Origin: Bdellovibrionales bacterium
Lineage (GTDB): Bacteria; Bdellovibrionota; Bdellovibrionia; Bdellovibrionales; UBA1609
Assembly: GCA_027459485.1 (NCBI GenBank)
Contig: DAIDIG010000005.1
Location: 62,001-126,000 of the forward strand
Length of the DNA: 64,000 nucleotides
Direction of reading: 5' to 3'
The notes under the pieces are model-generated. The model worked only from the letters and a program-made list of their open reading frames with translations, had not been told where the DNA came from and ran no database searches. Both the position numbers and the translations under genes were made by a program. Positions 34,824 through 63,748 of this stretch are shown piece after piece. Within the stretch, counting starts at the first letter, position 1. The number at the start of each line of letters is the position of its first letter.

Positions 34824-35288
34824 ATGAGGGGCATGCGCATTGGTTTGACCGTTTTTTCATTAATGTTGGTTCTGTCTTTTTCGTCAGTTGCTTTGGCAAC
34901 AATGGGTGAAAGCGCCACGACCGTTCAAACCGACATGTCGCACCTTCAAGGTCACAATTTGCAGGTGACCTCGAACTCCGTTTACACGACCTATACATTT
35001 CAAGCGCGCGGCGACGTCATCAAAGAATTTGCCAACACCGACGGCGTGATTTTCGCTCTCACCTGGCGCGGCCGCGCACCGCTCAATATGAGGGGGATCT
35101 CAGGCAAGCATTACCAGGCCTATCGCGCGATGCGCGCCATGCAACCGCACCTACATGTGCGCCATCCCATCATCGTGAAAACTCCTCTCATGACGGTTTA
35201 TCGCGGCGGTCACATGCGAGATTGGATGGGCCTAGCATATATGAAATCACTTGCGCCTTCGGGAGTGTCGGAGAGGGATCTTCGATGA
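34824..35288 (+). CDS. DUF2844 family exported protein
   Basis: 154 residues with a signal peptide (IGLTVFSLMLVLSFSSVALA). The mature part matches the DUF2844 pattern: a short beta-rich domain with YTTYTFQARGDVIKEFANTDGVIFALTWRGRAPLN and a following LRGxxY-like segment. A Met-, His- and Arg-rich tail (MRAMQPHLHVRHP) precedes the C-terminus. DUF2844 has no known activity. The stop shares bases with the start of the DUF3443 gene (ATGA), and the two families recur as neighbours. The start could be 34824 or 34833. Confidence 0.78.
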   Translation: MRGMRIGLTVFSLMLVLSFSSVALATMGESATTVQTDMSHLQGHNLQVTSNSVYTTYTFQARGDVIKEFANTDGVIFALTWRGRAPLNMRGISGKHYQAYRAMRAMQPHLHVRHPIIVKTPLMTVYRGGHMRDWMGLAYMKSLAPSGVSERDLR

Positions 35289-36616
35289 AAACCCTAACAA
35301 TTCGATTGCGGCGTTACGCGCGAGGCGCTTCAATTTTTATTCTTTTAATTCTGATTGGTTGTCAAAAATACAGCAGCACGAGTTGCAGTCTCAATTCGTC
35401 GTATGCCGCGGGCACGGCGAGTAGCCTTTCGCAAAACACAAATTACTTGGGCACGATTACCGGAAGCGAAAACAATATCATGTCGGTGGATGTCGGCGCG
35501 TGCGGCGGCACTTTGAATATCCCCTGCGCGAGCGTTACGATTTGCGTGCCCGGCAGCACCACCAACTGCCAAACGATAAATAATCTGTTGGTCGATACCG
35601 GCAGCTACGGCCTTCGCATTTTTTCATCGCTTGTGACAAATATCACTTTGCCCGCCGTCACCGATACTTTAAGCGGCGATGCAATTGGTGAATGTGTCGG
35701 CTACCTTGACGGGTCTGGCGACTGGGGCTCGGTCAACTATGCTGACGTTTATCTCGGCGGTACGAGTGGGCAAAAAGCCTCCAACATCCCAATTCAACTC
35801 ATTAACTCGGCTTATTCGGGCTATAACCCTTCTTCGGATTGCGCGGGCTATCAGGTCAATCTCGATACATCACCAACGTCAACGGGGTTCAATGGCGTCT
35901 TGGGCGTTGGTCAATTTACCCATGACTGCTCGGGCTGCGATACAAGTTCTAATAATTATCAGTATTACAAATGCACTGGCTCAACTTGCACAACATTCAA
36001 GGTCAATCTAGCCGACGAAGTTCAAAATCCAGTTTCGAACTTCGGCTCAGGCTTTAACAATGGCATTGTCCTTGAACTGCCGGGCGTGCCATCAACCGGC
36101 GCCGTCAGCGCTCCTGGTTATGCGATTTTTGGCATCAGTTCATTCAGCTCTGACGGTGCATCGGCCGCGAATACTCCCGGCAGCGGGGTCACCGTTTACA
36201 CCGGCGATACCAACGGTAACATTCAAACCACGTTCGACGGCACCGATTATTACACTTCATTTCTCGACAGCGGCTCGAACGGTCTTTACTTTCCGCAACC
36301 GTCGTCTTTACCTTCTTGTTCGAGCTCATTGTCGTCTTTCTTTTGCCCGTGCAGCCTGACCGACTTGACGGCAACTTTCAATAATGCGGCCGGCTCACTC
36401 ACCGGCACCAACGTTTCATTTTCAATCGGCAACGCGTCGGTGGACTTCGATCAGAGCAATCCCAATATGGTGTACAGTAGCTTGGGCGGCGGGTTAAGCG
36501 GTGAATTTGACTGGGGCTTGCCGTTTTTCCTGGGCCGCACCGTTTTTATCGGCATTAACGGTAAGGCGGCGACGATCAACACTAAGGTTTACACGGGGCC
36601 ATTTTTCGCGTTTTAA
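35285..36616 (+). CDS. DUF3443 lipoprotein, predicted pepsin-like aspartic protease fold
   Basis: 443 residues. Lipobox ILIGC puts the acylated Cys at 26. The body holds two Asp motifs: LLVDTGSYGLRIF (Asp about 104) and TSFLDSGSNGLYFP (Asp about 328). Between them is GFNGVLGVGQF (about 201-211), and near the end GEFDWGLPFFLGRTVFIGI. These four match the order DTGS, FDGILGLG, DSGT, and ILGDxFLRxxY of two-lobed pepsin-like enzymes. Many Cys suggest disulphides, consistent with a periplasmic or surface site. DUF3443 is officially of unknown function; protease activity is my inference. Coupled to DUF2844 by a 4-base overlap and followed by a terminator. Confidence 0.8.
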   Translation: MKTLTIRLRRYARGASIFILLILIGCQKYSSTSCSLNSSYAAGTASSLSQNTNYLGTITGSENNIMSVDVGACGGTLNIPCASVTICVPGSTTNCQTINNLLVDTGSYGLRIFSSLVTNITLPAVTDTLSGDAIGECVGYLDGSGDWGSVNYADVYLGGTSGQKASNIPIQLINSAYSGYNPSSDCAGYQVNLDTSPTSTGFNGVLGVGQFTHDCSGCDTSSNNYQYYKCTGSTCTTFKVNLADEVQNPVSNFGSGFNNGIVLELPGVPSTGAVSAPGYAIFGISSFSSDGASAANTPGSGVTVYTGDTNGNIQTTFDGTDYYTSFLDSGSNGLYFPQPSSLPSCSSSLSSFFCPCSLTDLTATFNNAAGSLTGTNVSFSIGNASVDFDQSNPNMVYSSLGGGLSGEFDWGLPFFLGRTVFIGINGKAATINTKVYTGPFFAF

Positions 36617-36656: not shown

Positions 36657-36688
36657 AAACCCGACTGGTCGTCCCAACCGGGTTTTTT
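36657..36688 (+). terminator. Intrinsic terminator after the DUF3443 gene
   Basis: AAACCCG at 36657-36663 pairs perfectly with CGGGTTT at 36679-36685 and runs into a T-tract. It closes the DUF2844-DUF3443 unit. The rest of the gap to 36881 shows no gene. Confidence 0.75.
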
Positions 36689-36881: not shown

Positions 36882-38003
36882 ATGAAACAGTGGATTCGAA
36901 AGCTCGTCGAGCAATTTGATGCGGGAGTGAACAGCGGCGCAAAAGGCGCAAAGTCCGCTGTCGGCGCGACCGACATTTCAGAAGATCGCGCGACACTCCT
37001 CTACCTGATCGACGTCTACAATAAAAATTTAATCGAAACTGATAAACACCCGGCGCGCAAAGTGCGCGAAATTTTCGACGAATTTATCAAGGCCCTTCTC
37101 GTCACCGAAGGGGCCGGCGCCGACGAATCGACGAAAGAAAAAGTGCTGTTTCGTTTGAGACAGTTTTTCGCCGTCCATCGACTCGATGAATATTCGTATA
37201 TTCAAAACGCCAATGAAGACTTTAAAGGCATCATTTGGGATTTCGCCGATCAACTGGGCGAAGCGATTCGACTTGAAAAGCTCGACGACAAAAACATCAG
37301 TGAAAGCCTTGGCCTCTTGCGGGAAGCCGTCGAAGCCAACTCGATCGAGGACTTGCGTGTTCGTTCGCGCGAATTTATCGATTTTTACGTCGAGCAACAA
37401 ACGCGGCGGGATGAGCGGCGCGAGAAAAGCTTGTCGCTTCTTAAAACAAATCTTGATTCCGTTCGAAAAAAGCTTTCAGATGCCAATCAAAAAATGCACG
37501 TCGACCATTTGACACAAGCATTTAACCGAATGGCCTTCGACGAAGAATGCCGGCGACTCTATGGCTTGCACCAGAAACAGCAGACTCCCGCATGCCTCAT
37601 CATGTTTGATCTCGATCATTTTAAACGCGTCAACGACACCTTTGGGCACGACGTCGGAGATATCGTATTAAAAGAGTGTGTGAAAACAATGAAGCAGGCG
37701 TTCAATGAACCCGGCGATCATATTTCGCGAACAGGTGGCGAAGAATTTGCCATATTGTTGCCCGGTTGCAACGCCGAACGCGCTATCGTGCGCGCCGAAG
37801 CCGCACTCGAGCAAATTCGCGCGAACGTCGTCATTCACGGCAGCTTTCAAGTGAAGTTCACGATCTCAATGGGTATTGCGGAGCTCGGCAAAGAACCGCT
37901 CGAAATGTGGGTCAAACGCGCCGACAGCGCCCTCTATGAATCGAAAAATTCGGGCCGCAACCGGTACACCGTCGCTCCCCCGCCGCATTTGTTCGCGGCA
38001 TAG
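36882..38003 (+). CDS. GGDEF-family diguanylate cyclase (GGEEF)
   Basis: 373 residues, cytoplasmic. The first 200 residues are helical (a domain with LRQFFAVHRLDEYSYIQN and a coiled coil before residue 205). The GGDEF domain follows: DHLTQAFNRMAFDEEC, IMFDLDHFKRVNDTFGHDVGD, ISRTGGEEFAILLPG (active-site GGEEF) and ADSALYESKNSGRNRY. It should make c-di-GMP from two GTP. The inhibitory I-site RxxD expected just before GGEEF reads EPGD, so product inhibition may be lost. The N-terminal input is not recognised. Bounded by the DUF3443 terminator and convergent serA. Confidence 0.9.
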   Translation: MKQWIRKLVEQFDAGVNSGAKGAKSAVGATDISEDRATLLYLIDVYNKNLIETDKHPARKVREIFDEFIKALLVTEGAGADESTKEKVLFRLRQFFAVHRLDEYSYIQNANEDFKGIIWDFADQLGEAIRLEKLDDKNISESLGLLREAVEANSIEDLRVRSREFIDFYVEQQTRRDERREKSLSLLKTNLDSVRKKLSDANQKMHVDHLTQAFNRMAFDEECRRLYGLHQKQQTPACLIMFDLDHFKRVNDTFGHDVGDIVLKECVKTMKQAFNEPGDHISRTGGEEFAILLPGCNAERAIVRAEAALEQIRANVVIHGSFQVKFTISMGIAELGKEPLEMWVKRADSALYESKNSGRNRYTVAPPPHLFAA

Positions 38004-47612: not shown

Positions 47613-49028
47613 CTAATTACGAGTGATATCATCTTGCAAACCAATTACACCTTTATCGCCGGCCATATCTCCGTAAAGATACTTGTTGGTGAAATGATCG
47701 CCAGAGTTTAAATCGAGAGCGGCAGCGGTCAACCACTTCCATTCGCCATAGTAGTGTAAAGCCGAGGGCGCTCCGCCGCCAAAAAAAGAGGCCTCAGTAA
47801 GAGGCCAAAAATGATCGGCTGTCAGATTCGCGTAGCTTCTGAAAAAAATGAATTGTTTATGCTTGGTTTTAGCACTCGAATAAATCGACTGTGAAATATC
47901 TCTCGAGACCACGTCGTCGTGGTCTGCATAAACGACTGTCAGGGCCATAGTCGAATCGATACTTGAAACAGCTGACTGGTCGAAACCTGCCGCCTCGAAT
48001 AAAACTATCGCATGAGGATGAACCGACAATTTCTCGCGAACCGCGAGGCCCGCTGCGATCGATGCGACATAAGCACCTTTTGAGTGCCCGCTAAATACGA
48101 CTTCATCACGCGAAAGTTCGTGAAACTGCTTGAGAGCGCAATCAGTCAGACGCACGTAATCACGCCCCATACGCTCCCAGTTTTGATCGAAAAAACCATT
48201 GTCATATGTAGGGAAAATGGCCGCTACACCTTTTTTAGCGAGATGCACTAACGTAGCACGGTATTTGTCTAAGCCTAAAGCTTGTCCGTGACCATAAACA
48301 ACAACCGGAAAATTCTTACCGGTGCCAGCTTGGTCCTTTTTTACCAATTTGGCTTTTGGTAAAAATACGCTCACCTGTCGACCGTAGCATTGCAAAGTTT
48401 TAGCGGTGAAATCATATTTGTAAACCATACTGCCTGGGTTATCAGGTGCTGTCGGAGCGGAGGGCGCGTCTAAATTTTCGCCTGCTTTTGACGTTCGATT
48501 CGCCGCCGGGTAGGCGCATCCCGCTTGCGTAGTATTTTGAAGTTTTGAAATATCGACTTGAGCAACCGCTTCTCTGAGAGCTTTCTCGAACAAATTATGA
48601 GGCAGTACCGGCGTTTTCGAAAGAATATAAAGAGATTTCATTGTTGGGTCGGTGACAACTGCGTAAGAGTACTGCGGCCCGATCGCAATGATCCAATATT
48701 GACCTTTGTTCGGCAGACCGAAATCAACAGTAAATTTAGAATGACTTGAAGGATCTTCGTCATAGGCATGACCACGAATTTCTAAAAGCTTACCTGACTG
48801 AGTGTACTCATTGCACGTATTGTAGACGTCAATCGAACCGTCTGCATCAGGGGTCAGAACTTGCCGTGAGCAGACACAACTACTTTCAAAAAATAAAGGG
48901 TTCCTAGCAATTTGATACCAAGTACCCGCGTATTTATTAAGGTCAACGAATGGCACAGTCTTAATATCAGCATTAGCGGCGACCGCGCAGCCTAATAGAG
49001 CCAAAGATATAAGCAGTCGACGAATCAT
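47613..49028 (-). CDS. Secreted lipocalin and alpha/beta-hydrolase fusion
   Basis: 471 residues. Signal peptide (cleavage near AVAANA). Residues about 28-160 form a Blc-type lipocalin: LNKYAGTWYQIARNP (GxW block), YWIIAIGPQYSYAVVTDP and SLYILSKTPVLP. After a Pro/Ala-rich linker (180-200), residues 205-440 are an alpha/beta hydrolase: VVVYGHGQALGLDKY (oxyanion region), VVFSGHSKGAYVA (nucleophile Ser about 316), VVYADHDDVV (Asp 369 or 371) and LTADHFWPL (His about 406), so a full Ser-Asp-His triad is available. It should act in the periplasm or outside. A lipid or ester substrate carried by the lipocalin is inferred. Confidence 0.8.
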   Translation of the reverse strand: MIRRLLISLALLGCAVAANADIKTVPFVDLNKYAGTWYQIARNPLFFESSCVCSRQVLTPDADGSIDVYNTCNEYTQSGKLLEIRGHAYDEDPSSHSKFTVDFGLPNKGQYWIIAIGPQYSYAVVTDPTMKSLYILSKTPVLPHNLFEKALREAVAQVDISKLQNTTQAGCAYPAANRTSKAGENLDAPSAPTAPDNPGSMVYKYDFTAKTLQCYGRQVSVFLPKAKLVKKDQAGTGKNFPVVVYGHGQALGLDKYRATLVHLAKKGVAAIFPTYDNGFFDQNWERMGRDYVRLTDCALKQFHELSRDEVVFSGHSKGAYVASIAAGLAVREKLSVHPHAIVLFEAAGFDQSAVSSIDSTMALTVVYADHDDVVSRDISQSIYSSAKTKHKQFIFFRSYANLTADHFWPLTEASFFGGGAPSALHYYGEWKWLTAAALDLNSGDHFTNKYLYGDMAGDKGVIGLQDDITRN

Positions 49029-53103: not shown

Positions 53104-54171
53104 CTACTGTTGGGCTCCGTTAGGAGTCGGTGCAGTCACAGCGGCGGGCGTAACTCCGGTTTTCGGCGGAGCATTTGGGTCCCAACCCGGTGGCGGCCAT
53201 CCATCAATCTTCATACCCAACGATAAACCCATACCAACCAATATTTCTTTAATTTCATTGAGCGACTTGCGTCCGAAATTTTTAGTTTTCAGCATTTCGG
53301 CTTCAGTTTTTGTTACAAGTTCGCCGATATATCGAATGTTCGCGTTTTTCAAACAGTTCGCACTTCTTACAGAAAGCTCAAGATCATCGACTGACCGAAA
53401 AAGGTTTTCATTCAACTTCGGCGAAGACGTTTTCACTTCTTCTTCTTGTGGCTCCAAATTTTCGTCAAACGTCAAAAAGATCTGCAATTGTTCTTTAAGA
53501 ATCTTTGAGCCAAGCGAAATAGCTTCTTCCGGTTTGAGGGAACCATCGGTCCAAACTTCCATTTCAAGCGCGTCATAGTCCGTGCGTTGGCCAACTCGCG
53601 CATTCGAAACCGAATAATTCACTCGGCGAATGGGGCTATGGAGCGCGTCAACCGAAATATACCCCAGCGGCAAGTCTTTCTTGTGTGACTCAGCTTCAAC
53701 GTATCCGCGGCCGAGTTTCACTATCACCTCAGCTTCAAATTTCGCATCTTTGCCGAGAGTGGCGATGTGCTGCTCAGGGTTAAGAATCGTCACCTGATCA
53801 TTCGTCTGAATATCAGCCGCCGTGACGACGCCAGGACCTTTTTTCGAAATCCGCAGAGTTTGCGGCTCAGAATTATATTGCTTAAATCGCACCTGTTTAA
53901 GATTCAGCACGATATCAGTCACATCTTCAAGAACATCCGGAATTGTGCTGAATTCGTGTAAAACGCCTTCGATTTTCACTGCACTTACGGCAGAGCCCAT
54001 CATCGAGCTGAGCAGAATACGTCGAAGTGAATTACCGAGTGTCACGCCATAGCCGCGCTCGAGCGGTCTTACGGTGAAACGCCCGTAACTTTCTGAAAGA
54101 CTTTCTTTATCGACCTCAAATCCCTTCGGTCGAATTAGCTCTCTCCAAAACTTATAGTAGTGCTGTTGCAT
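53104..54171 (-). CDS. rpoA: RNA polymerase alpha subunit
   Basis: 355 residues. The N-terminal dimerisation domain includes [32 protein letters not shown]-type residues ([17 protein letters not shown]), and the C-terminal alphaCTD has [23 protein letters not shown] and [15 protein letters not shown] Pro/Ala-rich tail of about 30 residues follows. AGGAG precedes the ATG. It directly follows rpsK with 17 bases between; rpsD, usually between them, is missing. Confidence 0.98.
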
Positions 54172-54188
54172 CTCGTTCTCCTAATTTT

Positions 54189-54620
54189 TTAAATACGACG
54201 ACGTTTCGGCGGACGACACCCATTGTGTGGAACAGGAGTCACATCACGAAGCGATGAAATGCGAATACCTAAACTCGCAACGGCGCGAACAGCTGGTTCC
54301 CGACCTGCTCCAGGTCCGTTTACAAACATATCAACGGATTTTACACCGTTTTCAAGCGCCTTACGGCCAGCATCTTCAGCCGCGACTTGTGCGGCAAAAG
54401 GAGTGCCCTTGCGGCTACCTTTAAAACCTTGCAATCCGGCAGATGACCAACAAAGGGCATTACCCGTCCCGTCAGTGAATGTGACGATGGTGTTGCCGAA
54501 GCTTGCCTGCACGTAACAACGGCCCGTCGGGACATTTCGCTTTGTTTTCTTCTTAGGAGCGGCTGCTGGCGCCGCATCCGTTTTAGCTTTTGCTTTATCC
54601 GCTTTTTTATCGTCGGCCAT
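54189..54620 (-). CDS. rpsK: 30S ribosomal protein uS11
   Basis: 143 residues. Core motifs: [50 protein letters not shown] and the C-terminal [18 protein letters not shown]. An N-terminal Lys/Ala-rich extension of about 25 residues precedes the core. Between rpsM and rpoA. Confidence 0.98.
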
Positions 54621-54633
54621 TTTCGCTCCTCAA

Positions 54634-55011
54634 TTAGCTAACAGCCATTTTCTTGTTTGCAACCGTTTTTCTCGGACCTTTTCTCGTTCTCGCATTCGAA
54701 CGAGTTCGTTGACCACGTACTGGCAATCCCTTTTTGTGCCGAAGTCCGCGATAACATCCGAGATCAATAAGACGTTTTATGTTCATTGATACTTCACGTT
54801 TCAAATCGCCTTCGATCTTGCCACCGGCATCGATTGCGGCACGAAGTTTTACAATTTGATCATCCGTTAGGTGATCGCTTCTCAAATTTAGATCCACGCC
54901 AGCCGCATCACAGATCTTACGTGCGCGCGGACGGCCAATGCCGTAGATATAAGTGAGAGCGACTTCCATTCTTTTATTTTTGGGTAGATCGACACCCGCT
55001 ATACGTGCCAT
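54634..55011 (-). CDS. rpsM: 30S ribosomal protein uS13
   Basis: 125 residues, normal length. [14 protein letters not shown] start, [10 protein letters not shown], and the basic C-terminus [18 protein letters not shown] that contacts tRNA and S19. Follows rpmJ closely. Confidence 0.98.
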
Positions 55012-55024
55012 TTGACTCCTCGAT

Positions 55025-55138
55025 TTAGCCTTGACGCTGTTTGTGTTTCGGGTTTTCGCAAATTACGCGCACAACGCCACGGCGCTTTATGACTTTACAT
55101 TTCACACAAATACGTTTCACCGATGCTCGCACTTTCAT
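55025..55138 (-). CDS. rpmJ: 50S ribosomal protein bL36
   Basis: 37 residues, too short for many gene finders. [20 protein letters not shown] then [13 protein letters not shown]. Three Cys plus a His make the zinc-binding (CxxC, CxxxxH) form. GGAGG lies 5 bases before the ATG at 55138. infA, often just upstream, is absent; the gap to adk (55139-55246) has no gene. Confidence 0.95.
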
Positions 55139-55246
55139 AATAACCTCCGGCAAACTGCACGCCGCCGTTCAAACCGCTAAAAACATTAAAAGCAAATTCG
55201 GGACCGCCGACTTTAACACCTCGTATATTCACTCGTCTAGATGTTT

Positions 55247-55888
55247 TTAACAGCCTAATGCCTTTTCAATTCGACGGTATACGTCGTGTTCGGAGCCCGA
55301 TCCGTCAACCAGTCTCAGCTCCCCTCGCTTCTCATAGTACTCTTTTAATGGGCGCGTCGAAGCCTCATAAACCTGCATTCTCGTGCGAATAGCCTCGGGG
55401 GCGTCGTCCGCCCGCTGATAAATATCTGTACCGCCACAAGTGTCACAGTGAACGCCGTCTTTTGGCGGCTTATTCTTAACATGGTAAGAAGCACCGCAAG
55501 TTCGGCAGGTCCGACGCCCTGATAGCCGTTCTACCAATTCATCTGTTGAAACTTCTAAAAACACAGCATTATCTAGTTTAAGTTTTTGCTCGTCCAAGAT
55601 CATATCAAGCGCATCAGCCTGAGCTAAGTTTCTCGGAAAGCCGTCCAAAATAAAATCATCTCGCAGTTCATTCAGGGCCTCTTGAACCATACCGATCGTT
55701 ACTGAGTCTGGTACCAATCGTCCCGCATCCAGGTAGCCTTTCGCTTCTTTTCCCAACGGGGTTTGATTCTTTATGGCCGCGCGAAACAAGTCTCCAGTGC
55801 TGATGTGACGCATCTTTTTTCGCTCCACAAGAAGACTCGATTGAGTGCCTTTACCTGCACCCGGCGGGCCGAACAACAATATGTTCAA
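55247..55888 (-). CDS. adk: Adenylate kinase (zinc-LID form)
   Basis: 213 residues. Interconverts 2 ADP with ATP and AMP. Motifs: LLFGPPGAGKGTQSSLL (P-loop), HISTGDLFRAAI, FILDGFPRNLAQADAL, and a LID with CRTCGASYHVK and CDTCGGTDIYQR, four Cys that bind zinc. It starts with TTG at 55888, overlapping the secY TGA (TTGA), with GGAGG 8 bases upstream. map and infA do not follow. Confidence 0.96.
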   Translation of the reverse strand: MNILLFGPPGAGKGTQSSLLVERKKMRHISTGDLFRAAIKNQTPLGKEAKGYLDAGRLVPDSVTIGMVQEALNELRDDFILDGFPRNLAQADALDMILDEQKLKLDNAVFLEVSTDELVERLSGRRTCRTCGASYHVKNKPPKDGVHCDTCGGTDIYQRADDAPEAIRTRMQVYEASTRPLKEYYEKRGELRLVDGSGSEHDVYRRIEKALGC

Positions 55889-57204
55889 TACGTCACCCTC
55901 CGGCTTCGAAACTTCACTCCCTTCATCACGCCTTCGTACTTAGCCGTGATCATATGAGACTGAATTTGTTGGCTCGTATCAAGAGCCACACCGACAAGAA
56001 TCAAAACCGTCGTACCGCCGAAATAAAACGGTACGTGAACGTACTGAATAAGCATTCCCGGCAAAACGCAAATAGCGCACAGATAAATTGCGCCAGCGAC
56101 GGTCAGCCTATTGAGCACCGTGACGATGTACTCAGTAGTGCTACGACCAGCGCGAATCCCAGGTATAAAGCCGCCCCATTTTTTTAGATTGTCAGAAACT
56201 TCGGTGGGATTGAACGCGATTTCAGTATAAAAAAAGCAGAAAAACCAAATAAGAATTATGTAGAAGATATTGTAAATACCTCCCGAGGGAGTGAGGTAGC
56301 TTTGCAAATTACGAATCCATGGCTTGTCAATAAACTGCGCAACCGTGGCCGGGAACAACAGCAGCGACGATGCAAAAATCGGCGGAATTACGTTTGCAAA
56401 ATTAATTTTAAGGGGCAAAAAGCTCGACGGAGTTTGCATCGCCATTCGTCCGGGACCGCGTTGCGAATACTGAATGGGAATACGCCTCTGACCAACTTCA
56501 AGAAATACGATGGCCGCAATCACCGCGAACATCCCGGCGATGATCAAAAAGGCGATCATGAAAGTCATTTCGCCGGATGAAACCATTTTCCAAAGCTTAG
56601 TCGCACCGGTTGGAATACCCGCAGCAATACCCGCGAATATGATGAGACTTGAACCATTGCCGACGCCCTTTTCATCTATTTGCTCGCCGAGCCACATGAT
56701 AAACACTGTGCCTGCAGTGAGAGTGATGATCGTCATGAGATAGAATGATATAAAGTGAACGCCAAAATAAGGCTCGGAAACTATTGGGCGGCCAGGCGCC
56801 GGACTTTTAATCATCCAAGTAGCCATCGCATAAGCCTGCACGATGGCCAGACCGACCGTCGAATAGCGCGTGTATTGGGTGATTTTTTTTCGTCCTTGTT
56901 CGCCTTCTTTTCTCAATTGCTCCAGATGGGGAACAGCTGTTTGAAGGAGTTCGAAGATAATCGCGGCGGAAATGTACGGCATGATCCCAAGCGCGAAAAT
57001 GCTGAACTTTTGCAAAGCTCCGCCGGTAAACATGTTAAAAAGACCGAACAGGCCACCGCCGTTTTGTTTGAAAAAGTTAAACACCGCAGTGCCGTCAACA
57101 CCCGGCGTGGGTACAGCGACACCTAAACGAAAGATGATCATTATAAAAATTGTGAAAATTATGCGCTGTCGTAACTCAGGTGGTATTGTCACTCTCGGTT
57201 GCAT
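55885..57204 (-). CDS. secY: Protein translocase subunit SecY
   Basis: 439 residues with ten hydrophobic helices. Channel subunit of SecYEG. Motifs: FRLGVAVPTPGVD, ALGIMPYISAAIIFELLQ (plug/helix 2 region), EGEQGRKKITQYTRY, QYSQRGPGRM, and GIRAGRSTTEYI. ATG 57204 shares a base with the rplO stop; a GTG at 57207 is an alternative. The adk start overlaps its stop. Confidence 0.97.
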   Translation of the reverse strand: MQPRVTIPPELRQRIIFTIFIMIIFRLGVAVPTPGVDGTAVFNFFKQNGGGLFGLFNMFTGGALQKFSIFALGIMPYISAAIIFELLQTAVPHLEQLRKEGEQGRKKITQYTRYSTVGLAIVQAYAMATWMIKSPAPGRPIVSEPYFGVHFISFYLMTIITLTAGTVFIMWLGEQIDEKGVGNGSSLIIFAGIAAGIPTGATKLWKMVSSGEMTFMIAFLIIAGMFAVIAAIVFLEVGQRRIPIQYSQRGPGRMAMQTPSSFLPLKINFANVIPPIFASSLLLFPATVAQFIDKPWIRNLQSYLTPSGGIYNIFYIILIWFFCFFYTEIAFNPTEVSDNLKKWGGFIPGIRAGRSTTEYIVTVLNRLTVAGAIYLCAICVLPGMLIQYVHVPFYFGGTTVLILVGVALDTSQQIQSHMITAKYEGVMKGVKFRSRRVTY

Positions 57205-57644
57205 CACAATTGGATAACCTCGACTTTTCCGCCCGCTTTTTCAATAGCACTCTTAGCGGATTCACTGAATTTGTGCGCCTTAATCGTTAAGTTCTTTTTA
57301 AGCGCACCATTGCCTAAAATCTTAACAGGTCCCTTTTTAATTAGGCCGGCTGATTTAAGAACGTCGATCGTCACTTCACCATCTAATTTCTCAAGCTGGC
57401 TCAAGTTCACGATTTCATACCGTGTACGGAACATAGTGTTTTTGAAACCAAATTTCGGGAATCTCCGATGCACGGGAGTCTGGCCACCTTCAAATCCTCT
57501 TCGGATGTTGCCGCTTTTACGCGCCTTTTGACCTTTGTTGCCCTTACCAGCGCGACCACCCTTGCCCGAACCGCGTCCGCGACCGAGCCTTTTCGTGTTG
57601 TGTGTTGAGCCGCCTTTTGGGCGCAGAGTAGAAAGCATATTCAT
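57204..57644 (-). CDS. rplO: 50S ribosomal protein uL15
   Basis: 146 residues. LSTLRPKGGSTHNTKRLGRGRGSGKG Gly-rich N-terminus (motif GRGRGSGKGGRAGKGNKGQK), then FEGGQTPVHRRFPKFGF. Between rpmD and secY, stop overlapping the secY start. Confidence 0.97.
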   Translation of the reverse strand: MNMLSTLRPKGGSTHNTKRLGRGRGSGKGGRAGKGNKGQKARKSGNIRRGFEGGQTPVHRRFPKFGFKNTMFRTRYEIVNLSQLEKLDGEVTIDVLKSAGLIKKGPVKILGNGALKKNLTIKAHKFSESAKSAIEKAGGKVEVIQL

Positions 57645-57651
57645 AAATCAC

Positions 57652-57849
57652 CTACTTTTCGGTCGTCTTTTGAACAGTCACTTGTACAAGGTGCTGAACT
57701 TTAAAAATCTGCCCGCGATTAGCCGGATTGTCAGCCACCACAACTTCAGCATTACGTCGACGAAGACCAAGGCATCGAACAGCCTCGCGTTGGCTCTCCT
57801 CGCATCCGCGTAGTCCTCTAATTAATTTCACTCGAAATGATTTTGCCAT
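57652..57849 (-). CDS. rpmD: 50S ribosomal protein uL30
   Basis: 65 residues. KSFRVKLIRGLRGCEESQRE, LGLRRRNAEVVVADNP and HLVQVTVQ match the short bacterial L30. It starts 2 bases after the rpsE stop. Confidence 0.96.
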   Translation of the reverse strand: MAKSFRVKLIRGLRGCEESQREAVRCLGLRRRNAEVVVADNPANRGQIFKVQHLVQVTVQKTTEK

Positions 57850-57851
57850 AA

Positions 57852-58349
57852 TTATACCTCAAGCCGTGACGGGCGCCCTTCCATTAATTGACTGAGCCCA
57901 GCCAAGGTCGCACGAACTGCGTTTCTTGGATTTGTTGGCCCCACGCATTTAGTCAAAATATCTTTAATGCCCAAGCTTTCAAGAACCGCACGGATTGCTC
58001 CGCCGGCGATAACACCAGTCCCAGGTGCGGCTGGCATAAGAAGAACTTTGGTTGCACCGAATCGGCCTTCTACCTCGTGAGCAATAGTTCGATTTTCATG
58101 AAGCCGGAAAGTCATCATTTGTTTTTTTGCGGATCGGCTCGCTTTGGTGATGGCTTCGGGTACTTCACCCGCTTTACCCTTTCCGATGCCGACTTTGCCG
58201 TTTCCGTTACCCGCGACAACTAACGCCGCAAAAGAAAACCGCCGCCCGCCTTTTACCACTTTTGCCACACGGCTGATGGCCACAACGCGCTCTTGAAATT
58301 CGGAATCTCCGCGCTCGCCTCGTTCGGGTCTATCTGAATTTTCCGCCAT
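57852..58349 (-). CDS. rpsE: 30S ribosomal protein uS5
   Basis: 165 residues. [60 protein letters not shown] and [14 protein letters not shown] are standard. Between rplR and rpmD. Confidence 0.97.
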
Positions 58350-58378
58350 TCTATTCTCCCATTTCTCGTTTCAAAAAA

Positions 58379-58750
58379 CTAAAATTTTAGGCCGCCCTCA
58401 CGTGCGGCATCCGCTAACGCCTTTATGCGCCCGTGATATAAATATCCGCCGCGATCAAAAACAACGTCAGAAATTTTCTTCTGCAAAGCCAATTTAGCGA
58501 TCTCCGCGCCCACGGTCGCGGCCGTGTCCTTCGCTTTTCCGTCTTTTGCTTTAACCGTGATAGTCGAAGCTGCCGCCAGAGTTTTACCGCTCGTATCGTC
58601 GATAACTTGGGCATAAATATGATTGGCACTGCGGAAGATGCTTAAGCGAGGACGCTCGGGCGTACCGAACACTCTCTTTCTGATTCGAACACGCTTTTTT
58701 GCTCTCGATTTCAACTTCCGCGACGATTTGTTATGATAATTAAGTCTCAC
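58379..58750 (-). CDS. rplR: 50S ribosomal protein uL18
   Basis: 123 residues, 5S rRNA binding. [35 protein letters not shown] and [28 protein letters not shown]. Between rplF and rpsE. Confidence 0.97.
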
Positions 58751-58774
58751 GTTAAACCTCTCAATAAATAGCTA

Positions 58775-59311
58775 TTACTTACCTGCCGCTTTTCCGGCCT
58801 TACGACGAATACGTTCATCCGAATATTTGATACCTTTAGCCAAATAAGGTTCTGGCGGTCGATAATTTCGAATTTGTGCCGCAACCTGGCCGACCTTGGC
58901 GCGATCTGCTCCCGTTATAATAATTTTCGTTTGTTTATCGACCTTAATTTCAATGCCTTCTGGAATTTCAAAACTTACAGGATGACTAAAACCAAGGCTC
59001 AACTCAAGCTTCTTACCCGCGACGTTTGCTCGGTAACCCACCCCGTTCAATTCCAGTTCTTTCGTCCAACCTTTAGAAACGCCGGTTACGGCATTTTGTA
59101 ATAAAGCGCGAGTTAACCCGTAGTACTTTCCATCTTCGACATTGTCGCAAACGAGCGTCACTTTGCTCTCTTCAATTTGCGCTTTTATTTTGTTCATCAG
59201 AGGCACAATAAGCGCGTGCTTGGCGCCTTTGACTTGAAGTTCTTGCGCTGGCGTCAGCGTCACTTGAACGCCCTTTTGCAAATAAACTGGAGATTTTCCG
59301 ACTCTCGACAT
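58775..59311 (-). CDS. rplF: 50S ribosomal protein uL6
   Basis: 178 residues. MSRVGKSPVYLQKGVQVTL, GVSKGWTKELELNGVGYRA, LGFSHPVSFEIPEGI and RPPEPYLAKGIKYSDERIRRKAGKAAGK. ATG 59311 is chosen by family start; a GTG at 59317 is in frame. Follows rpsH closely. Confidence 0.96.
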   Translation of the reverse strand: MSRVGKSPVYLQKGVQVTLTPAQELQVKGAKHALIVPLMNKIKAQIEESKVTLVCDNVEDGKYYGLTRALLQNAVTGVSKGWTKELELNGVGYRANVAGKKLELSLGFSHPVSFEIPEGIEIKVDKQTKIIITGADRAKVGQVAAQIRNYRPPEPYLAKGIKYSDERIRRKAGKAAGK

Positions 59312-59317
59312 ATCCAC

Positions 59318-59707
59318 CTACCAAATTCTAAAAAGTAACTCTCCACCGAGTTTTTGTTCTTTAGCCTCATCGCCCGTCATAATGCCTTTGCTCGTACTCA
59401 GCACTGCCATTCCGTACCCATGTCGCACATTTGGGATGTCTTTCGACCCGATATACTTGCGAAGCCCAGGGCTACTTTCTCTCATGATATTGCGGATGAT
59501 TGGCTCACCTTTGGGCGTATACCGCAAATAAACCCTCATCATGCCCTGCTTACCGTCACGGGCGATTTTGAAACTGCGGATGTATCCATTTTTTTGTAAC
59601 AGAGACGCAATACCCACACGCATATTCGATGACGGCACATCCACTTTTTCGTGTTTCGCCAGAGCGGCATTTCGGATTCTCGTCAGAAACTCAGCAACTG
59701 TATCCAT
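59318..59707 (-). CDS. rpsH: 30S ribosomal protein uS8
   Basis: 129 residues. FLTRIRNAALAKHEKVDVPSS N-terminus and the C-terminal rRNA-binding GYGMAVLSTSKGIMTGDEA region. It follows rplE by 15 bases; rpsN, usually between them, is absent. Confidence 0.97.
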   Translation of the reverse strand: MDTVAEFLTRIRNAALAKHEKVDVPSSNMRVGIASLLQKNGYIRSFKIARDGKQGMMRVYLRYTPKGEPIIRNIMRESSPGLRKYIGSKDIPNVRHGYGMAVLSTSKGIMTGDEAKEQKLGGELLFRIW

Positions 59708-59722
59708 CTTTCCAAGGCTCCT

Positions 59723-60262
59723 TTATTTACGGAATGGCATGCCGAGCGCTTCAAGTAGCGCGCGACCCTGCTCGTCAGTTTTGCCGGTTGTACAAATTGT
59801 GATATTCATTCCCCGCATCATGTCCACTTTTTCGTATTCGACTTCAGGAAAAATAATCTGCTCTTTGACGCCCATGTTGAAATTGCCACGACCGTCAAAA
59901 CCCTTCGGGGATAACCCGCGAAAATCTCGAACGCGTGGCAAACTAAAATGGATCAGCTTCTCTAAAAATACCCACGCGCGATCGCGGCGTAAAGTCACCA
60001 TCGCGCCGAGCGGAATGCCTTCGCGTAACTTAAAATTTGAAATCGCCTTTTTTGCGTGAGTAATTGCCGCCTTTTGGCCAGCAATTGCCGTCAACTCATC
60101 GACAACATTGTTCACGATTTTGGGGTTTTTCACCACTTCGCCGGTCGACACGCTCAATACAATTTTATCGAGTCGGGGCACCTGGTGGATGTTCGTCACT
60201 TTCAGCTGATTTTTCAGCTGGGGAATGACTTCCTTTTTGTATTTTTCGAATAGCGTACTCAC
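59723..60262 (-). CDS. rplE: 50S ribosomal protein uL5
   Basis: 179 residues, 5S rRNA binding. [58 protein letters not shown] and [18 protein letters not shown]. The start is GTG at 60262; GAGGAG lies upstream with a two-codon ATG AAG TGA whose stop overlaps the GTG. rplX, usually upstream, is absent. Confidence 0.97.
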
Positions 60263-60277
60263 TTCATTCTCCTCGAT

Positions 60278-60646
60278 TCACAGCACTTCAGGCGCCAGCG
60301 ATACGATTTTTACAAATTTCTTTGCCCTCAGTTCTCTAGCAACTGGTCCAAATATCCGAGTGCCGATAGGCTCAAGGGCCGCATTGATTAACACTGCTGA
60401 ATTATCGTCAAACCTCAGATAGCTGCCGTCAGGACGACGCAACTTGTGAGTCGTGCGCACGATGACGGCCTTCGCCACGTCGCCTTTTTTCACTTTTGAA
60501 TTCGGCAACGCATCCTTAACCGAAACCACGATTATATCGCCGATATTGGCATAGCGCCGCTTACTGCCGCCCAGCACTTTTAAGCACTGGACTTCACGCG
60601 CCCCTGAATTGTCAGCGACCTTTAGTCGCGTCTGCATTTGAATCAT
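60278..60646 (-). CDS. rplN: 50S ribosomal protein uL14
   Basis: 122 residues. [41 protein letters not shown] and [20 protein letters not shown] are diagnostic. Its start overlaps the rpsQ stop by 4 bases. The next gene is rplE, not rplX. Confidence 0.98.
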
Positions 60647-60966
60647 ACGTCTACTCCAGAAACTTGCTTCGATTTTTCAACGACTTCAGCCAACGTCCAT
60701 CGCTTCGTTTTGCTGAGCGGGCGGGTTTCAAAAATACGGACCAAGTCGCCTACTTTAGCCTCATTTTTTTCGTCATGGGCTTTGAACACCGACGATTGAC
60801 GAATGTATTTGCCGTATCGAGCGTGTTTCACGAGCGAAAAAACCTGAACTGCAATTGTCTTGGCCATCTTATCGCTCACAACTCGACCGACAACTTCATT
60901 GCGCATTTTTCGCGCGCTTTTGTCGTCTGTTATTGGGGCTGCTTCTTTTTTGTTCGCTTTTGCCAT
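60643..60966 (-). CDS. rpsQ: 30S ribosomal protein uS17
   Basis: 107 residues. [45 protein letters not shown] and [22 protein letters not shown] Lys/Ala-rich N-terminal extension of about 20 residues is longer than in E. coli. Confidence 0.96.
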
Positions 60967-60983
60967 ACCAAATTCCTTTAATT

Positions 60984-61175
60984 TTATCGCGAAAGTTTCG
61001 CCGAAAGGATCGTATTCACTCGGGCAATATCTCTTCGCAAAGTGCGGACCTGCAGCGGGTTCGCGAGTTGACCAAGCGACATCTTCATTTTCGCTTGAAA
61101 CAAATCTTCGCTCATCGACCTTTGCCGCTTCCGCAACTCTTCAACTGTTAAATCCTGAATCTCTTTAAACTTCAT
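60984..61175 (-). CDS. rpmC: 50S ribosomal protein uL29
   Basis: 63 residues from ATG 61175, which gives GGGAG a 7-base spacer; an ATG at 61181 is too close. [19 protein letters not shown] and [14 protein letters not shown] are standard for L29. Confidence 0.95.
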
Positions 61176-61198
61176 TGTCATTCTCCCAAATTACCGTC

Positions 61199-61606
61199 TT
61201 ACTCGCGAGCTATGAATTTCGTTCGGATCGGCAATTTATATTGAGCCAGCTTAAACGCATCTTCTGCCTGCTGACGAGTCACACCGTTAATTTCGAACAA
61301 AATGCGTCCCGGTAAAATATTTGCGACCCACAATTCCGGAGCGCCTTTACCGCTACCCATTCGAACTTCGGCCGGCTTTTTGGTGATCGGACGATCCGGA
61401 TAAACACGCATCCAAAGCTGCCCGCCTCGCTTCACCGAACGGCTGATGGCAATACGACTGGCTTCCAATTGGCGGGCCGTTACTCGACCGCAAGTAACTG
61501 CAGCTAGGGCATAATCACCGAAAGAAAGCTCACTGCCACGACGAGCCAGGCCTTTAAATCCCGCGCGATGTTGACGGCGCCACTTAACCTTCTTTGGACT
61601 TAACAC
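61199..61606 (-). CDS. rplP: 50S ribosomal protein uL16
   Basis: 135 residues. [64 protein letters not shown] and [12 protein letters not shown]. It overlaps the rpsC 3' end by 23 bases. Confidence 0.98.
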
Positions 61607-62258
61607 GACTTGCCTCCTGAACTTCTTTTGCCGACATAATGTCGCCGCGATAGATCCAGACCTTTACACCGATCAACCCGTAAGTGGTGAGTGCTTCGGC
61701 CGTCCCGAAATCGATATCCGCTCGCAATGTATGAAGCGGAACGCTTTTTTCCGTATACCATTCCGTACGCGCAATCTCGGCCCCGTCCAACCGGCCGGCG
61801 ACCATCACTTTGATCCCACGCACGCCGCTTCGTAAAGACGCGGCCATCGCCTTTTTAATCGCCTTACGCCATGACACTCGCTTTTCAAGCTGAAGAGCGA
61901 TGCTTTCTGATACCAATTGCGCATCCAAATCGGGTTTACGAACTTCTTGGATGTTCACAAACACTTCACTGGGCGTCAGCTTTTGGATGTCAGCCTTCAG
62001 GGCGTCGATGCCTGTACCTTTTTTACCAATTACAACACCCGGACGCGCCGTTGAAATAATCACCTTCAATTTTTTCGCAGCTCGCTCCATTTCAATCTTC
62101 GCGACGCCGGCGTGCTTCAGTTTATCTTTGATGTACTTGCGAAGTTTAAAGTCTTCTTGCAAGTTCGCGGCGAACTGTCCGCCTTTTGCAAACCAACGTG
62201 AATCCCACGTGCGAATCACGCCGACTCGTAAACCAATTGGATTAACCTTCTGACCCAA
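61584..62258 (-). CDS. rpsC: 30S ribosomal protein uS3
   Basis: 224 residues. [20 protein letters not shown], the KH domain [18 protein letters not shown], and [18 protein letters not shown] with [15 protein letters not shown]. Between rplV and rplP. Confidence 0.98.
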
Positions 62259-62279
62259 ACTACACCCGACCTTTCATGC

Positions 62280-62615
62280 TCATGCCCTCTCATCCAAAAC
62301 GAGTGAAATGTGGCTTGTTTTTTTTCGAATCATAAACGCACGACCTTGCGCACGCGGACGGTACCGCTTCATGTCCGGCCCTTCATCGACGAGCACGGTC
62401 TTCACAAAGAGATTATCGACGTCGATCACTTTCTTCTGTTCGGCGTTTGCAACGGCCGATTCAACAAGCTTTTTCATAAAAACCGCGGTCTTTTTCGGCA
62501 TAAATGCGAGTATCCGAATGGCGTCATTCACGTTTTTACCGCGAATCGCATCTGCAACAAGGCGCGCTTTTTGACTGCCGACGCGCGCGTATTTCAAATC
62601 TGCTTTAACTTCCAT
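62280..62615 (-). CDS. rplV: 50S ribosomal protein uL22
   Basis: 111 residues. YARVGSQKARLVADAIRGKNV, VESAVANAEQK and the tunnel hairpin RYRPRAQGRAFMIRKKTSHISLV. Confidence 0.97.
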   Translation of the reverse strand: MEVKADLKYARVGSQKARLVADAIRGKNVNDAIRILAFMPKKTAVFMKKLVESAVANAEQKKVIDVDNLFVKTVLVDEGPDMKRYRPRAQGRAFMIRKKTSHISLVLDERA

Positions 62616-62620
62616 GATGA

Positions 62621-62914
62621 CTAAGCTCCTTTCGCCGGGGCGGCGGCTTCAGCTTTGCGTTCAGAGTGACCGCCAAATTGCCGAGTTGGAGCAAATTCGC
62701 CCAATTTGTGACCAATCATATTCTCAGTCACATAAACCGGAACAAACTTCTTACCGTTGTGAACCGCGAATGTCAGACCAACGGACTCCGGCAGTATCGT
62801 CGATCGGCGCGACCAAGTCTTGATCACTTTCCGATCGCCAGATTTAAGCGCGGCAGCTATTTTCTTCATTAAATGATGATCCACATAGGGACCTTTTTTT
62901 ACTGAACGAGCCAC
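62621..62914 (-). CDS. rpsS: 30S ribosomal protein uS19
   Basis: 97 residues. [60 protein letters not shown] short Ala/Glu-rich tail ([11 protein letters not shown]) extends the usual end. Confidence 0.97.
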
Positions 62915-62917
62915 TGT

Positions 62918-63748
62918 TTACATTCCTTTCGCGTTTCGACGTCTGATGATCATCGAATCGGTCCGTTTATTTTTACGAGTTTTAAACCCTTTGCACGGCT
63001 TACCCCACGGAGTTACAGGATGATGCCCTTTACCGACACCTTCGCCGCCACCAAGGGGGTGATCAATCGGGTTCATAGCCATACCTCGAACAGAAGGACG
63101 AATCCCCCGCCAACGGCGTCGACCGGCTTTACCCCAACTGATGTTTTCGTGATCCGTATTGCCGACTTGCCCGATACTGGCGCGGCAAACCGATAAAACT
63201 TTACGAACTTCGCCCGACGGCAATCGCACTTGGCAATATTCACCGATTTTACCGATAAGTACTGCACCAACGCCCGCACCGCGAGCAATCTGAGCGCCTT
63301 TGCCTGGACGAAGCTCTACATTGTGAATTGTCGTACCGGCGGGGATAAGCCCCAGCGGTTTTGCATTGCCAGGCTTAATGTCGGCGGTATTGCCCGAGAC
63401 GACGGCATCTCCGACGTTCAAACCCACTGGTGCCAGAATGTACGATTTCATTCCATCTGCATAGCAAATGAGCGCGATTCGGCAGGTGCGATTGGGATCA
63501 TATTCAATCGCTAAAACTTTGGCCGGCACATCGATTTTATTTCGATGAAAATCTATAAGACGATAACGGCGCTTGTGGCCCCCGCCTTTGTGCCAAACCG
63601 TGATCATACCGGTGTTGTTTCGGGCCGCCCGACGCGAAAGCGCACGGGTCAACGATCGCTCTGGCTTCGATTTAGTAATCTCTGAAAAATCATACCCTGT
63701 CATTTGTCGCCGTGACGGCGTATTGGGGCGATATGTTCGAACTCCCAT
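62918..63748 (-). CDS. rplB: 50S ribosomal protein uL2
   Basis: 276 residues. Peptidyl-transferase-centre protein: [40 protein letters not shown], and the C-terminal [27 protein letters not shown] with the conserved His. Confidence 0.98.

Follow-up and report, generated by a model that had tools for sequence, protein, structure and literature searches.

Pepsin-like bilobal proteases were long thought to be eukaryotic. The locus described here raises the question of whether two adjacent bacterial genes, for whose families Pfam gives no function, encode an exported protease of this type together with a partner protein. The genes lie on the forward strand of a 64,000-nucleotide stretch of a Bdellovibrionales genome, which we refer to as the window. 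The upstream gene (34824 to 35288, + strand) encodes a 154-amino-acid DUF2844 protein (PF11005; E = 8e-22; 78 bits against a Pfam curated cut-off of 22.4). The downstream gene (35285 to 36616, + strand) encodes a DUF3443 protein (PF11925; E = 3e-100; 336 bits against a curated cut-off of 25), which is 443 amino acids long from its ATG start codon at 35285. The ORF list and the Pfam search agree with the coordinates and family names in an initial annotation of this DNA. That annotation also described the genes as translationally fused by an ATGA. The stop/start overlap is present (35285 to 35288, + strand), but the genes are two separate ORFs, and no fused DUF2844-DUF3443 ORF occurred among the ORF records of the loci examined. 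Translational coupling through the overlap is possible. A possible intrinsic terminator (36665 to 36681, + strand) comes from a pattern scan that overall was not above chance, and a promoter scan also gave chance-level results. NCBIfam has no family for DUF3443. Literature searches by DUF name or Pfam accession found no paper on DUF3443 or DUF2844 (the text matches to PF11005 were Plasmodium papers), and no paper joining Bdellovibrio with pepsin was found. Our reading, to which we give a probability of about 0.78, is that DUF3443 is an exported, lipid-anchored bilobal aspartic peptidase with DUF2844 as a partner dedicated to it, which most likely inhibits it or assists its folding in trans.

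An AlphaFold2 (AF2) model of DUF3443, built from a 63-row alignment with no templates, had a mean pLDDT of 88.4 and a pTM of 0.86, with pLDDT of at least 90 for 334 residues. The model contains two pseudo-symmetric beta lobes in a single chain over about residues 61 to 443 (AF2 and VIA; a prediction, not a solved structure), the arrangement anticipated in the initial annotation. A Foldseek search of the model against the PDB returned 397 chains at E ≤ 0.001. The best 50 of the 397 all belong to family A1, and the top row was endothiapepsin (E = 2.8e-11). The TM-scores were modest (0.46 by query and 0.60 by target, rmsd 6.6), which we attribute to insertions and gapped local alignment. VIA-align gave an unambiguous structural match of the model to pepsins, with Z scores of 23.8 for 1wkr (283 residues at 3.1 Å, model residues 62 to 443 on chain residues 1 to 329) and 22.5 for human pepsin; a single rigid superposition covers the two lobes together. 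The pepsin-fold reading of DUF3443 is strongly supported by this predicted structure and by motif conservation.

In order to assess conservation, 63 DUF3443 and 57 DUF2844 homologues were gathered from the window's phylum, from Paraburkholderia/Burkholderia relatives and from Acidobacteria. The 63 DUF3443 rows (alignment A3) are 31 to 59% identical to the window protein. The motifs lie exactly where they had been placed initially: DTGS at residues 104 to 107, GFNGVLGVG at 201 to 209, DSGS at 328 to 331 and WGLPFFLGRTVF at 410 to 421 (W410 to F421). Each predicted lobe carries one D[TS]G[ST] motif. In catalytic motif 1 (D104-T-G-S107; 35594 to 35605, + strand), D104, T105 and S107 are invariant (63/63) and G106 is found in 61/63 rows. 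In catalytic motif 2 (D328-S-G-S331; 36266 to 36277, + strand), which comes after a strand at residues 320 to 327, D328 is invariant (63/63), position 329 is Ser or Thr in 63/63 and G330 is found in 62/63. Both Asp residues sit in stretches with a pLDDT of about 97, which, with the rigid full-length superposition on pepsins, gives indirect support for a candidate dyad whose carboxylates would lie within hydrogen-bond distance. The flap hairpin (Y140-L-D-G-S-G-D-W-G148; 35702 to 35728, + strand), predicted from strands at residues 133 to 139 and 144 to 157, is aromatic at position 140 in all 63 rows (42 Phe and 21 Tyr) and retains W147 in 61/63 and G148 in 63/63. The hydrophobic-hydrophobic-Gly element of lobe 1 (N203-G-V-L-G-V-G209; 35891 to 35911, + strand; strand at 204 to 208) includes the invariant residues N203, G204 and G207 (63/63), and V205-L206-G207 is the psi-loop partner. 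The putative lobe 2 counterpart of the pepsin ILGDxFLR motif is D409-W-G-L-P-F-F-L-G417 (36509 to 36535, + strand), with a helix at 412 to 415 and then a strand at 419 to 423. Its psi-loop candidate is D409-W410-G411, in which the first residue is Asp, not hydrophobic, in 52/63 rows; where the region is present, G411 is found in 61/61 and L412 in 55/61. We take G411 to be the psi-loop Gly of lobe 2, followed as in pepsin by a short helix and a strand. Invariance of the motifs at 31 to 59% identity indicates strong constraint on DUF3443, and identities of 66, 71 and 38% at codon positions 1, 2 and 3 between the window gene and a congener indicate purifying selection.

The export signals of both proteins were judged by inspection. 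Residues 1 to 26 of DUF3443 look like a lipoprotein signal with the lipobox L23-I-G-C26 (35351 to 35362, + strand). C26 occurs in 56/63 rows of alignment A3, the remaining 7 being gaps. A script found the lipobox pattern in 49/65 DUF3443 proteins, several of the rest being cut or variant, and the Paraburkholderia proteins mostly carry LVACGGGG or similar. We infer a membrane location for DUF3443, which is probably anchored there. Ten largely conserved Cys residues (87, 95, 137, 186, 215, 218, 230, 235, 345 and 354) suggest disulfides, which would fit an oxidising compartment. Between Cys26 and residue 60 model confidence is low (pLDDT of about 50 to 69 in the linker at residues 27 to 60; 35363 to 35464, + strand), and AF2 predicted no folded prosegment there. 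DUF2844 has a predicted signal peptide at residues 1 to 25 (34824 to 34898, + strand), a hydrophobic N-terminus with an A-x-A, ending in SVALA; A25, L27 and G28 are nearly invariant at the presumed cleavage site. An acidobacterial DUF3443 (L003:3993-6092, also L050) forms the C-terminal part of a 699-residue open frame, preceded by about 280 additional residues in place of a plain lipoprotein leader.

Of 74 DUF3443 ORF records, some of them from overlapping loci, 68 have DUF2844 as the immediate upstream gene; under a stricter search the figure is 54 of 65. Within the window's phylum, DUF3443 was found in 33 and DUF2844 in 29 of 368 genomes, and all 29 are among the 33 (hypergeometric 4e-39, a statistic that ignores relatedness). 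Because of this gene order and the 29/29 co-occurrence, DUF2844 is, as judged from gene content, a real partner of DUF3443. A mirror-tree comparison gave r = 0.81; shared ancestry inflates this value, which we do not take as proof of contact. In two genomes, G158 and G173, DUF3443 is without this neighbor (L021 and L018) and DUF2844 is on another contig (L093:4874-5374, which is G158:C57, and G173:C31); the association seems to survive separation of the genes.

The AF2 model of DUF2844 (pLDDT of 89.7) has the order a1-b1-b2-b3-b4-a2-b5-b6-b7-a3. Its fold search gave no confident PDB match, only weak DUF2874, BLIP-like and RseB/MucB-type rows. The best Foldseek E value was 0.029 (DUF2874, then BLIP-like), and the VIA Z scores of 5.5 to 7.4 are in the tool's stated noise band; these rows are too weak to assign a PepSY- or BLIP-like inhibitor fold. 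The DUF2844 profile had one chance-level match in the PDB. Because DUF3443 has no prosegment and the genes are paired, we favor a role for DUF2844 as a trans-acting inhibitor or folding factor of DUF3443, at roughly even odds. It is unlikely that DUF2844 instead is a substrate, cleaved by DUF3443 to free a signal or adhesive fragment and made together with it to match amounts. The near one-to-one pairing would be expected of a dedicated substrate no less than of a regulator, and DUF2844 is the more variable protein (17 to 32% identity to the window copy, versus 31 to 59% for DUF3443). However, its mature length is predicted to be a compact, confident domain, and it is conserved at both ends with no obvious conserved unstructured segment for cleavage.

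The relationship of DUF3443 to family A1 was examined at the sequence level. A Pfam search gave no PF00026 match at E ≤ 10, and no PDB chain matched at E ≤ 10 by phmmer with the single protein or by a search with the 63-row profile. BLASTP and hhalign against porcine pepsin (a query fully identical to 5pep) and a seven-sequence A1 alignment that included bacterial A1 proteins gave only alignments that were weak (hhalign probabilities of 0.7 to 9%) but sensible in register. Against porcine pepsin, hhalign placed DTGS on DTGS and Y140-L-D-G-S144 on the flap Y75-G-T-G-S79 (a weak E value of 0.076), a flap register that agrees with the predicted hairpin. Against the A1 alignment, lobe 1 of DUF3443 fell on the pseudo-equivalent lobe 2, as the symmetry between lobes permits. 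The DUF3443 model has in common with the A1 pepsins (PF00026; endothiapepsin, rhizopuspepsin, polyporopepsin and human pepsin) a full-length bilobal all-beta fold, one D[TS]G[ST] motif per lobe, a hydrophobic-hydrophobic-Gly element in lobe 1 with a candidate counterpart in lobe 2, and a flap hairpin that bears an aromatic residue. Unlike them, it has no detectable A1 sequence match and is a predicted lipoprotein without a folded prosegment and with a separate partner protein. It is also larger, with an Asp-Asp spacing of 224 residues versus 183 in pepsin. Pepsin Trp39, which contacts Tyr75, is replaced by Arg or Lys (R111; 58 Arg and 5 Lys in alignment A3), and Tyr75 by Phe or Tyr, mostly Phe. 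These two changes may give subsites and kinetics that differ from those of pepsin. The Asp303 position of pepsin would be Leu412 in DUF3443 if the psi-loop Gly is G411.

Leu also replaces Asp303 in the Shewanella pepsin homologues, a feature that they would share with DUF3443, and Phe is found at the flap position in some known bacterial A1 proteins (PMC2761423). The shewasins are, like DUF3443, bacterial, two-lobed and single chain, but they are members of family A1 without signal peptides, and the cytoplasm is the main site of accumulation of shewasin D (PMC2761423, PMC4814920), whereas DUF3443 is predicted to be exported, is Cys rich and is paired with DUF2844. In lobe 2, D409 to G417 can be compared with SILGLPLMNNYFTVFD of a bacterial A1 member. 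A distinctly unlikely reading is that DUF3443 is not a separate family within the clan but a true, diverged A1 member gained by horizontal transfer from eukaryotes. In its favor, the closest folds among the best 50 of 397 Foldseek rows and in VIA are fungal A1 enzymes, and the catalytic stretch of lobe 2, DSGSNGLYF, resembles the DSGTNGIYL of bacterial A1 members. Against this, PF00026 does not match, the profile comparison is weak, and the DUF3443 family is deeply diverged and present in at least three bacterial phyla. Since the search for A1 sequence similarity gave none of significance, we place DUF3443 outside A1; the best reading of the model is a new family of the bilobal aspartic-protease fold, distinct from A1 and from the cytoplasmic shewasins. 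RimB and the exported retropepsin-like protein RloA of Pseudomonas aeruginosa (PMC12239564), both bacterial, are aspartic peptidases from the same clan. A retropepsin-like assignment (family A2, RimB/RloA) was rejected because DUF3443 has two lobes and two Asp motifs per chain; the retropepsin Asp dyad forms between two chains, whereas DUF3443 has both lobes in one.

It is improbable that DUF3443 has kept the pepsin fold but lost the ability to cleave, acting instead as a binding or scaffold lipoprotein. Pepsin-fold nonenzymes do exist (the TAXI/EDGP type and some plant xylanase-inhibitor proteins), a conserved active site can serve binding without cleavage, and the substitutions at the Trp39 and flap positions would fit such a role. 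However, such nonenzymes have usually lost either one of the catalytic Asp residues or a DTG/DSG motif, and DUF3443 retains both Asp residues in 63/63 sequences across several phyla, also in the circular permutant described below. We infer that DUF3443 is catalytic. An accidental origin of DTGS and DSGS in a lipoprotein rich in Ser, Gly and Thr is refuted both by conservation, in that the motifs are invariant over 63 sequences with D104 and D328 in every one, and by the predicted fold, a high-confidence model that matches pepsins at a Z score of 23.8.

In the mechanism that we propose, mature DUF3443 would be tethered to the membrane, probably the outer membrane, through an acyl group on Cys26 and some 35 residues of flexible linker. 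D104 and D328, one from each lobe, would together make up the water-activating site, and the flap hairpin, with its aromatic residue at the Tyr75 position, would close over the substrate. Unlike pepsinogen, DUF3443 has no predicted folded prosegment of its own. DUF2844, whose gene shares the two-gene unit and which has its own predicted signal peptide for export, would do the job of the prosegment in trans, as inhibitor or folding factor. The broader notion of a two-gene zymogen is more tentative, and we consider it somewhat doubtful as a whole: a membrane-anchored bilobal bacterial pepsin family, distinct from A1 and without a prosegment, would depend on DUF2844 as an obligate small protein that folds it or holds it inactive in trans, and would include one or more natural circular permutants of the pepsin fold. 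The few known bacterial pepsin-like proteases lack signal peptides, and the one that has been localized is cytoplasmic (PMC2761423, PMC4814920). If our reading is correct, DUF3443 would be a surface or periplasmic pepsin for bacteria, in a conserved, exported and multicopy family; it would bear on when the two pepsin lobes first fused, and two DUFs would become a testable enzyme and partner. Action of DUF2844 as a prosegment in trans would add a new way of controlling aspartic proteases. A link between DUF3443 and the acid-protease fold may already exist in predicted-structure databases.

One DUF3443 gene from the window's genus (L013:3859-5154, + strand; also L033 and L051) is an apparently permuted orthologue of the second DUF3443 copy of the window's genome. 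It is a single open frame of about 431 residues in which the lipobox and linker are followed by the region from the flap to the C-terminus and then by the N-terminal strands, with DTGS near the end; HMM positions 120 to 413 precede 46 to 115, in contrast to L001 and L044. The permuted gene retains every catalytic motif as well as the lipobox, and DUF2844 still lies upstream of it. By DNA alignment it is collinear with the unpermuted orthologue, DUF2844 and both flanks included, except for a block of ~172 bp (79% identical in protein) moved from the 5' to the 3' side. The contig name of this MAG gives a low coverage (0.96), and misassembly is a concern; the in-frame junctions, kept motifs and native-like linker nevertheless argue for a true circular permutation. 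Such a permutation fits the pepsin fold, since the pepsin termini are neighbors. Tandem DUF3443 copies were observed elsewhere (L025, L039 and G370:C7:62966-66283) and could plausibly represent a stage that precedes circular permutation.

Two DUF2844-DUF3443 pairs are present in the window's genome, in which no PF13650 match and, in a search run without a positive control genome, no PF00026 match was found. Paraburkholderia genomes carry up to six DUF3443 copies. DUF3443 was over the cut-off in 10 of 398 genomes sampled from the phylum of Paraburkholderia and in 3 of 247 from that of the Acidobacteria locus, each sample including its centre; canonical A1 (PF00026) was over the cut-off in 5 of 349 from the Paraburkholderia phylum. 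The pair had no match in phages and no defence link in PADLOC (best E of 0.088). Among the loci scanned there was no conserved neighborhood beyond the pair itself. The neighbors vary (ABC transporter, EamA, HMG-CoA reductase, esterase, T2SSE and a chemotaxis/flagellar cluster), and this context therefore points to no pathway. On plasmid pBGF2 of Burkholderia glumae (L077), the pair is part of a chemotaxis-flagellum cluster, where it is flanked by cheZ and flhB. A GGDEF protein adjoins both pairs of the window's genome (window 36882 to 38003; L001:13-792), which is probably coincidence, since none of the other loci scanned showed one immediately next to the pair. Elsewhere in the window, a 471-residue protein (47616 to 49028, - strand) beside a tRNA-Arg gene has an N-terminal lipocalin domain (PF08212), the rest giving a weak esterase/lipase match (phrog_789), and an ordinary ribosomal protein cluster (L2, S3, S8, L15, SecY, S11 and RpoA) occupies 53107 to 63748 (- strand).
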